Origin: Moraxellaceae bacterium | Lineage (GTDB): Bacteria; Pseudomonadota; Gammaproteobacteria; Burkholderiales; Rhodocyclaceae | Assembly (NCBI GenBank): GCA_031119205.1 | Contig: JAVHYF010000005.1 | Span: 7,260 to 71,259, forward strand | Length of the DNA: 64,000 bases | Reading direction: 5' to 3' | Part shown: positions 49,683 to 52,920 of the stretch, piece after piece | Numbering within the stretch: the first letter of the stretch is position 1 | Layout of the letters: the number at the start of each line of letters is the position of its first letter | Position numbers and translations under genes: made by a program | Notes under the pieces: model-generated | Told to the model about the DNA's origin: nothing | What the model saw: only the letters and a program-made list of their open reading frames with translations | Database searches by the model: none

Positions 49683-49814
49683 ATGAAGACTTTCGTCAAG
49701 TTTGTCGCCCTGTTCGTTATGGCCAGTGGTCTGAGCGCCTGCAACACCTGGCACGGCTTCGGCAAGGACGTCGAAAAGGTCGGCGACTCCATCCAGCGTA
49801 GTGGAAGCAAGTAA
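49683..49814 (+). CDS. ecnB: Entericidin A/B-family lipoprotein
   Basis: MKTFVKFVALFVMASGLSACNTWHGFGKDVEKVGDSIQRSGSK with lipobox LSAC; below the ORF-track length cut-off. Confidence 0.88.
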   Translation: MKTFVKFVALFVMASGLSACNTWHGFGKDVEKVGDSIQRSGSK

Positions 49815-50496: not shown

Positions 50497-51558
50497 ATGA
50501 AGATCTGTGTGTTGCCCGGCGACGGGATCGGTATCGAAATCACCGCCGAAGCCGTGCGCGTGCTGGAAGCCCTGCGTAGCGACGGTCTCAAGGTCGAGAT
50601 GGAAAACGCCCTGCTGGGTGGCTGCGCGGTGGATGCCACCGGCGAGCCCTACCCGGAAGAGACGAAGAAGCTGGCGCGCGCTTCTGACGCCGTGCTGCTG
50701 GGCGCCGTCGGCGGCCCGAAGTGGGACGTGCTGCCGCGTCCTCAGCGTCCGGAGCGTGGCCTGCTGGGTATCCGCAAGGATCTGAACCTGTTCGCCAACC
50801 TGCGTCCGGCCATGCTGTACCCGGAACTGGCCAATGCTTCGTCGCTGAAGCCGGAAGTCGTGTCCGGTCTGGATATCCTGATCGTGCGTGAGCTGACCGG
50901 TGACATCTACTTCGGCGAGCCGCGCGGTATCACGACCGAAGACGGCAAGCGCGTCGGCCGTAACACCATGATCTACAACGAAGACGAAATCCGCCGCATC
51001 GGTCACGTCGCCTTCAAGTCTGCCCAGAAGCGCAACAAGAAGGTGTGCTCGGTCGACAAGATGAACGTGCTGGAAACCACCCAGTTGTGGCGCGACGTGA
51101 TGATCGAAGTCGCCAAGGAATATCCGGACGTCGAGCTGTCGCACATGCTGGTCGACAACGCCGCCATGCAGCTCGTGCGCGCACCGAAGCAGTTCGACGT
51201 GATGGTCACCGGCAACATGTTCGGCGACATCCTGTCGGACGAAGCCTCGATGCTCACCGGCTCCATCGGCATGCTGCCGTCCGCGTCGCTGGACCAGAAC
51301 AACAAGGGCATGTACGAGCCTTGCCACGGTTCTGCTCCGGACATCGCCGGCAAGGGCGTGGCCAATCCGCTGGCGACCATCCTTTCCGTGGCGATGCTGC
51401 TGCGCTACAGTGGCGCTAATGAAGCGGCCGCAGTCCGCGTCGAAGATGCCGTCAAGAAGGTGCTGGCCCAAGGCCTGCGCACCGGCGACATCTGGGAAGA
51501 GGGTTGCAAGCGCGTTGGTACGCGCGAAATGGGCGACGCGGTCATCGCGGCGCTGTAA
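50497..51558 (+). CDS. leuB: 3-isopropylmalate dehydrogenase
   Basis: [46 protein letters not shown]. Confidence 0.97.
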
Positions 51559-51576
51559 GACGGGAAACGGGGTCAC

Positions 51577-51708
51577 ATGAACAAGCTCGCACAGGCCTTT
51601 GAAAACAGCATCCGCGCCGCGGATGCTGTGGCCTGCACGCGCGGTGTGACCACCGTCATTACCCTGTCCACCAAGAAAACGACTACCAAAACCACCTTTG
51701 GGGTCTAG
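51577..51708 (+). CDS. Thr/Lys-rich 43-aa ORF, putative leader peptide upstream of asd
   Basis: Hand translation: MNKLAQAFENSIRAADAVACTRGVTTVITLSTKKTTTKTTFGV*. 10 Thr in 43 residues, 9 of them within residues 25-40. Not in the supplied ORF track (too short). Confidence 0.5.
   Translation: MNKLAQAFENSIRAADAVACTRGVTTVITLSTKKTTTKTTFGV
51592..51635 (+). promoter_or_regulatory. Strong bulged hairpin inside the leader ORF
   Basis: CAGGCC-tttgaaa-ACAGCATCCG-cgccg-CGGATGCTGT-GGCCTG: 10-bp perfect stem plus 6-bp outer stem. Confidence 0.6.
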
Positions 51709-51709
51709 T

Positions 51710-51772
51710 CCTGTCGCCACTGCGCCTGTCTCCGCCGCAGCGGAGATGGGGCCAAGACAAGGCGGGGACAGG
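51710..51772 (+). promoter_or_regulatory. Second hairpin region between the leader ORF and asd
   Basis: Inner stem tctccgc-cgca-gcggaga (51729-51746); outer cctgtc (51710-51715)/gacagg (51767-51772). Confidence 0.5.
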
Positions 51773-51792
51773 TTCATTCAAGGAAATTCATC

Positions 51793-52920
51793 ATGAAGCG
51801 AGTAGGTATCGTCGGCTGGCGCGGCATGGTCGGCTCTGTGCTGATGCAACGCATGCGCGAAGAGAACGACTTTGCGCTGATCGATCCGGTGTTCTTCACG
51901 ACCTCGAATGTCGGTGGCAAAGGTCCCGACATCGGCCGCGACGTGCCGGCACTGCAGGACGCGAAGAGTATCGAGGCGCTCAAGCAGATGGAAGTCATCA
52001 TCACCTGCCAGGGTGGTGACTACACGAACGAGATCTACCCGCAACTGCGCGCTGCCGGCTGGACGGGCTACTGGATCGATGCGGCGTCCGCGCTGCGCAT
52101 GAAGGATCACGCGATCATCATCCTCGATCCGGTCAACCAGAACGTCATCAAGGACGGCCTGGTGCGCGGGGTGAAGGATTATGTAGGCGGCAATTGCACG
52201 GTCAGCCTGATGCTGATGGCGCTGGGTGGCCTGTTCCAGAATGATCTGGTCGAATGGGCGACATCCATGACCTATCAGGCGGCTTCCGGCGCGGGTGCCC
52301 AGAACATGCGCGAGCTGATCGCGCAGATGGGCAAGATACATGGTTCGGTCGCGCATCTGCTGGAAGACCCGGCATCGGCCATTCTGGATATCGACCGCAA
52401 GGTCGCGGAAACCATCCGTTCGGCGGAAATGCCGGTGCAGAATTTCCGCGGTGTTCCGCTCGCCGGCAGCCTGATTCCATGGATCGACGTGGCCTACGAA
52501 AATGGCCAGAGCAAGGAAGAATGGAAGGGCGGTGCCGAGTGCAACAAGATTCTCGGCAAGCCTGCTTTCCGTACGCCGGGCAGCATTCCCATCGATGGTC
52601 TGTGCGTGCGCATCGGCGCCATGCGCTGCCATAGCCAGGCGCTGACCATCAAGCTCAAGCGCGATGTGCCGTTGGATGAAGTCAATGACATCCTGGCGGG
52701 CGCCAATGACTGGGTGCGCGTCGTGCCGAACGAGCGCGAGCGCTCGGAACGCGAGTTGACGCCTGCTGCAGTGACCGGCCATCTGCACGTACCGGTTGGT
52801 CGTCTGCACAAGATGGCGATGGGCCCTGAGTATCTGGCAGCCTTTACCGTTGGCGACCAGCTCTTGTGGGGAGCAGCGGAGCCTTTGCGGCGCATGTTGC
52901 GGATCCTGCTTGATGCATAA
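51793..52920 (+). CDS. asd: Aspartate-semialdehyde dehydrogenase
   Basis: [57 protein letters not shown]. Confidence 0.96.

Follow-up and report, generated by a model that had tools for sequence, protein, structure and literature searches.

A candidate threonine/lysine-sensing attenuator upstream of asd in Burkholderiales, with control codons in a separate leader ORF or in the C-terminal tail of LeuB

Introduction

Aspartate-semialdehyde dehydrogenase (Asd) stands at the branch point leading to lysine and diaminopimelate (DAP; cell wall), methionine, threonine and isoleucine. The attenuator of the enterobacterial thr operon, thrL (Rfam Thr_leader, RF00506), consists of a short leader rich in codons for the end products, followed by mutually exclusive hairpins. 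A preliminary description of the 64,000-nucleotide stretch of DNA analysed here (the window) noted a Thr/Lys-rich open reading frame (ORF) directly upstream of asd, and proposed that ribosome stalling at its Thr and Lys codons controls that gene. The question raised by this locus is whether the ORF is the leader of an attenuator and, if so, how widely such an arrangement is found upstream of asd in related bacteria.

Results

The leader ORF between leuB and asd

The following coding features were identified around the intergenic region of the window:

50497–51558, + strand: leuB (3-isopropylmalate dehydrogenase; TIGR00169 match)
51577–51708, + strand: leader ORF of 43 codons, MNKLAQAFENSIRAADAVACTRGVTTVITLSTKKTTTKTTFGV (from the sequence; conserved in relatives, with in-frame gaps only)
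51649–51696, + strand: Thr/Lys control codons, residues 25–40 of the leader, TTVITLSTKKTTTKTT (unique in the window; frame-specific enrichment)
51780–51785, + strand: Shine-Dalgarno sequence (SD) of asd, AAGGAA (from the sequence)
51793–52920, + strand: asd (aspartate-semialdehyde dehydrogenase), presumably the gene under control (TIGR01745 and NF005144 matches)

The C-terminus of LeuB in the window was ordinary (...MGDAVIAAL-stop) and the leader ATG was located 18 nt past the end of leuB. The leader was as first described, with nine Thr and three Lys codons in residues 25–40 and 84 nt separating its end from the asd ATG at 51793. This was the only spot with at least 8 Thr per 16 residues among the 98,559 stop-free 16-residue windows in the six frames of the 64 kb. 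When the window and nine relatives were taken together, 72% of the final 15 in-frame codons specified Thr, Lys or Ile vs 15% and 6% in the other frames, and the enriched residues were encoded by varied synonymous codons. The Thr codons of the leader were mostly ACC, which matched the usage in neighbouring genes, and they are therefore not rare. The SD-like sequence of the leader itself was weak. Neither a promoter-like nor a terminator-like site was detected in the leuB–asd interval, and co-transcription of the leader with leuB is therefore probable. Additionally, a search of 51300–51900 for an intrinsic terminator (GC-rich hairpin followed by a U-tract) revealed no terminator-like site, which agreed with the initial reading that there is no clear U-tract and that a classic terminator is the less likely mechanism, and no relevant Rfam family, including Thr_leader, riboswitch aptamers and T-box, matched the window at gathering level.

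Elsewhere in the window, a small lipoprotein-like ORF, MKTFVKFVALFVMASGLSACNTWHGFGKDVEKVGDSIQRSGSK, which resembles entericidin, was present between leuC and leuD (49683–49814, + strand); similar ORFs precede asd at two other loci (L159 and L160).

Predicted competing RNA structures in the window

Five RNA elements were placed within the leader and the region past its stop codon:

51592–51635, + strand: hairpin in the 5′ part of the ORF, pairing 51592–51597 with 51630–51635 and 51605–51615 with 51619–51629 (folding; both stems covary in the genus)
51710–51724, + strand: arm 2, CCTGTCGCCACTGCG, directly past the stop codon, where a ribosome at the stop would cover it
51725–51736, + strand: arm 3, CCTGTCTCCGCC, 12 nt (pairing test with arms 4 and 5)
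51736–51751, + strand: arm 4, CGCAGCGGAGATGGGG, which pairs with arm 3 or arm 2 (pairing test)
51761–51772, + strand: arm 5, GGCGGGGACAGG, an alternative partner of arm 3 and the partner of arm 2 in the minimum-energy fold (folding and pairing test)

Folding, which was modelled at equilibrium and ignored co-transcriptional order, gave z = -3.55 for the stretch holding the 51592–51635 hairpin (0/200 shuffles as good) and z = -2.44 for the post-stop region 51709–51812 (3/200 as good). The minimum-energy fold of the latter paired 51710–51715 with 51767–51772 and 51725–51735 with 51740–51750. The hairpin first reported after the ORF (51729–51746) was likewise present. CCTGTC was confirmed at 51663, 51710 and 51725, and GACAGG once, at 51767–51772. 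The suggestion that these copies could form mutually exclusive structures was refined, as CCTGTC:GACAGG is one of several competing pairings. Arm 3, which contains the copy at 51725, can pair with either 51740–51750 or 51761–51772.

Conservation in Uliginosibacterium and a second genus

Judged by its named relatives, the window belongs in or near Uliginosibacterium (Rhodocyclales). The leader ORF, its codons and its position were retained in 8/8 genomes of this genus and in two genomes of a second genus. The Uliginosibacterium leaders had 38–43 codons, ended in ...KTTTTV-stop or similar and lay 81–84 nt before asd. Those of the second genus (two MAGs, L015 and L017) ended in ...VTTKTTKTVTG-stop or similar, 95–97 nt before asd, and had no leuB upstream. 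No such ORF was found in the other Rhodocyclales inspected, where most leuB–asd gaps were shorter, commonly 20–55 nt. A spacer of 329 nt between leuB and asd in an Azonexus MAG (L042) was made up mostly of tandem GGATCAA heptamers. A covariance model built on the region past the stop (R1) matched only these two genera among 399 genomes of the family, representing 68 genera, and similarity searches alone would therefore miss the wider pattern described below.

Alignment of the genus sequences showed that 27/27 gaps in the ORF were multiples of three, vs 0/13 past the stop. Like the frame-specific codon composition, this gap pattern suggests that the leader is translated. Permutation tests, which preserve composition and not phylogeny, revealed 14 pairs changed on both sides across the genus-wide structure, vs a shuffled mean of 7.4 (0/500 shuffles as high), and a native-vs-foreign partner test on all ten sequences gave P = 0.019 for 2:4, P = 0.007 for 3:4 and P = 0.006 for 3:5. 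The same arm pairings were not significant with the eight sequences of the genus alone. Pairing of a linker with the SD was unsupported in the window's group (P about 0.2), and masking arm 2 did not significantly alter predicted SD accessibility in this group. A 2:5 pairing, although predicted by folding, was rejected because the matched/mismatched test gave it no support (P = 0.46). The comparison with relatives called for in the preliminary description found the ORF, the Thr/Lys codons and the alternative stems conserved and covarying.

Analogous leaders in other Burkholderiales

When 400 genomes of the order were searched upstream of asd for the codon pattern, three more loci emerged, whose leaders differed in sequence. 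In 229 genomes of the class, of which three had already been included in the sample of the order, the window was the only match. Thr/Ile/Lys leaders in two families, designated f14 and f49, came to light when the regions upstream of asd were surveyed. Burkholderia stagnalis encodes the leader MALISLISPVLKTHGNTARAVTRAIVITKTITTKTIIKR, followed by a stop, before asd, and a Thr/Ile/Lys leader was also present in B. multivorans, B. cenocepacia and Caballeronia sp. SBC2. Other Burkholderiales families have, ahead of asd, sequences that share this anatomy without recognisable similarity, in line with the original proposal. Most families of the order were without the element, and asd is therefore not dependent on it.

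In f49, a large Burkholderiales family, an analogous element accompanies most asd genes. Scripts that applied scoring and motif rules were used to locate leaders and arms. The f49 loci included 43 with a free leader, typically MFAARPF...ARAITTKTTTIKG-stop, and 43 in which the control codons were fused to LeuB (...MGDAVVAAITGKTITKS-stop). Over these 86 elements, the last 11 codons were 37% Thr, 18% Lys and 16% Ile. All three amino acids are products of the pathway through Asd. Gaps in the f49 free leaders were multiples of three in 21/21 cases, vs 35/127 past the stop. A TACAAT-like -10 box was located 6–11 nt before the leader ATG in 42/43 of the free leaders (for example, L217 and L242); its position predicts a leaderless or near-leaderless transcript and suggests that transcription begins at or near the start codon. 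B. cenocepacia is known to have leaderless mRNAs (PMC4603805).

Candidate control codons as a C-terminal tail of LeuB

The Thr/Ile/Lys tail of LeuB was present at 47/51 loci with a leuB–asd gap of 66–190 nt vs 0/40 others (Fisher P = 1.3e-21). It was found only where the spacer and hairpins come next, and was absent where there was a free leader or no element. The preliminary description had dealt with Thr and Lys codons in a separate ORF; elsewhere Ile was found to be a third control amino acid, and the control codons often formed the C-terminal tail of LeuB. In L240, the likeness of LeuB to solved structures stopped at residue 355, with 16 extra residues beyond this point. Tails were carried by L235, L238, L240, L244 and about 40 more f49 loci, where standard annotation would treat them as part of the enzyme.

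Two further sets of loci were noted. L247 (G904; leuB–asd gap of 95 nt) apparently had arms 2, 3 and 4 together with an ordinary LeuB end (...AVIKALK-stop) and no Thr/Lys tail; it is possibly a degenerate element. In L152, L153 and L207 (family f22), LeuB had a Thr/Lys-rich segment, IATKTTKKPSTTSEIGTAVVKAI to the stop, about 20 residues before its end and 69–78 nt before asd. This segment was set aside as a source of control codons because it aligned with an ordinary LeuB loop.

A proposed switch in f49

The arms past the stop in f49 were arm 2 (AGCTCCGGTTCGTC), arm 3 (CCCCGG) and arm 4 (GACGAGCCGGGG). Arm 4 was shared by the mutually exclusive pairings 2:4 (94.5% of cells paired) and 3:4 (97.7%), with compensatory changes in both, and the linker between arms 2 and 3 was complementary to the asd SD. 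Comparison of matched and mismatched duplex energies, again by permutations that preserve composition and not phylogeny, gave z = -7.9 (2:4), -6.8 (3:4) and -5.3 (linker:SD); two control pairings in this test were not significant. Effect sizes, here and in the window's group, are somewhat optimistic because the same sequences both defined and tested the arms. Pairing of the ORF end with the linker or with arm 4 was unsupported, and pairing with arm 2 was weak (P = 0.008 over all 86, unclear in either group alone). Masking arm 2, to mimic a ribosome at the stop, lowered predicted SD accessibility in 37/43 free leaders; the change was not significant in the LeuB-fused loci.

A model of the f49 element (R2) gave strong matches in 83/101 f49 genomes. 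In 82 of these the element lay just before asd; in the sole exception, G820:C18 (L306), 594 nt separated it from asd, with other sequence, possibly another gene, in between. All other R2 matches were weak. R2 matched Burkholderia loci weakly, at the right place (11.5–13.6 bits), and did not match the leader of the window. The window and f49 elements are therefore alike in anatomy only, as far as the evidence goes. An Rfam search of eight loci at E up to 1 returned nothing except a chance snoRNA match.

Discussion

Proposed mechanism and alternatives

The best explanation of the element, and in our judgement a likely one, is that asd is under ribosome-mediated attenuation that responds to how much Thr, Lys and Ile is available. 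It was reached by comparison, from the conserved ORF and codon content, the conserved alternative stems and the association with asd; stalling, sensing, the direction of switching and the translational output are what we infer from these. The preliminary idea that stalling at Thr/Lys codons controls asd gains support in the same way, from the ORF, the codons and the covarying alternative stems in relatives. A ribosome would translate the Thr/Lys-rich leader and, during a shortage of charged Thr- or Lys-tRNA, stall before it gets to the stop. Arm 2 would then stay exposed and pair with arm 4, the 3:4 hairpin would be blocked and asd would be on. With ample supply, the ribosome would reach the stop codon and cover arm 2, 3:4 (or 3:5) would form and asd expression would be reduced. 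Repression in f49 would most likely act at translation initiation, because the linker is complementary to the asd SD, and a translational output is favoured there. In the window's genus the 3:4 and 3:5 stems would probably occlude the asd ribosome-binding site, with Rho as the alternative. Elsewhere, the same logic would operate with LeuB carrying the control codons as a C-terminal tail.

The same sensing could have Rho-dependent termination as its output, with the C/A-rich, G-poor Thr stretch and the post-stop RNA providing a Rho loading site dependent on ribosome position. We hold this to be possible but unlikely. The window is without an intrinsic terminator, and no U-tract follows arm 4 in the 86 f49 loci, where the next 10 nt contain at most 3 T; a Rho mechanism has also been proposed for the terminator-less Cys leaders of Mycobacterium (PMC1262725). 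However, the linker:SD covariation in f49 indicates translation initiation, and a Rho site alone needs neither frame-specific Thr/Lys/Ile codons nor the fusion to LeuB.

Intrinsic termination at a later hairpin, under the 2:4/3:4 switch, would use a stem just before the SD and the T-rich tract found in some f49 loci. A run of at least 5 T occurred between arm 4 and the asd ATG in 25/86 f49 loci; in L258 and L266 the stem ACAAACCC/GGGTTTGT is followed by TTTTT. Such a run was, however, missing from most f49 loci, and between arm 4 and asd the longest T run was 4 in the window's group and 2 in the window, which has no terminator-like site, so that this reading appears improbable. More doubtful still is the reading of the Thr/Lys stretch as a feature of protein or RNA composition, either an unstructured A/C-rich spacer or a LeuB tail that serves the protein: A/C/T-rich Thr, Lys and Ile codons would keep the RNA unstructured, but the enrichment is limited to the reading frame with varied synonymous codons, the LeuB tail is restricted to loci with the spacer and hairpins downstream, and the three amino acids are those derived from the product of Asd.

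Comparison with known systems

Attenuation by amino acid supply would place the asd element beside thrL, with which it shares a leader of end-product codons and exclusive hairpins ahead of aspartate-pathway genes. Unlike thrL, which precedes thrABC, the element precedes asd, has Thr/Lys (window) or Thr/Ile/Lys (f49) codons, and is without an intrinsic terminator or an Rfam match. In translational attenuators of the ermC type, a ribosome stalled on the leader is thought to switch stems and so expose the ribosome-binding site of the next gene. A stalled ribosome is likewise proposed to change the choice of stem before asd, but the presumed signal is amino acid supply, not a drug. In SecM, MifM and VemP, the next gene is controlled by ribosomes that stall close to the C-terminal end of a longer protein, and the LeuB-tail form is the parallel to these. 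LeuB, in contrast, is a metabolic enzyme whose tail is compositionally biased without a conserved arrest sequence, and this tail is presumed to act by codon hunger, not by interaction of the peptide with the tunnel. The main survey of proteobacterial attenuators is reportedly that of Vitreschak and colleagues from 2004. The leaders of Mycobacterium cys operons have regulatory codons near the stop and no terminator hairpin, and no conserved hairpins were reported for them (Seliverstov et al. 2005, PMC1262725). The asd element also has near-stop regulatory codons and no terminator hairpin, but its alternative hairpins are conserved and covarying, and it belongs to another pathway and another phylum.

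Significance

The amino acid attenuator is a known kind of element; what sets the present one apart is asd as its presumed target in Burkholderiales, the missing terminator and, above all, the leader that the tail of an enzyme would form. A literature search of open-access papers found no description of a betaproteobacterial asd leader or of a LeuB-tail leader. It is probable, if a degree less secure than attenuation itself, that a large group of Burkholderiales uses the C-terminal tail of full-length LeuB as the leader peptide for attenuating asd; translation of the last LeuB codons would read the availability of Thr, Lys and Ile and set the expression of the next gene; the window would represent the alternative, a separate ORF doing the same job. 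The element predicts a simple circuit that spans several products together. If the LeuB-tail form is true, an ordinary enzyme can bear the sensor peptide of an attenuator, searches for short upstream ORFs would overlook such leaders, and protein tails specific to a lineage may in fact be hidden regulatory sequence.
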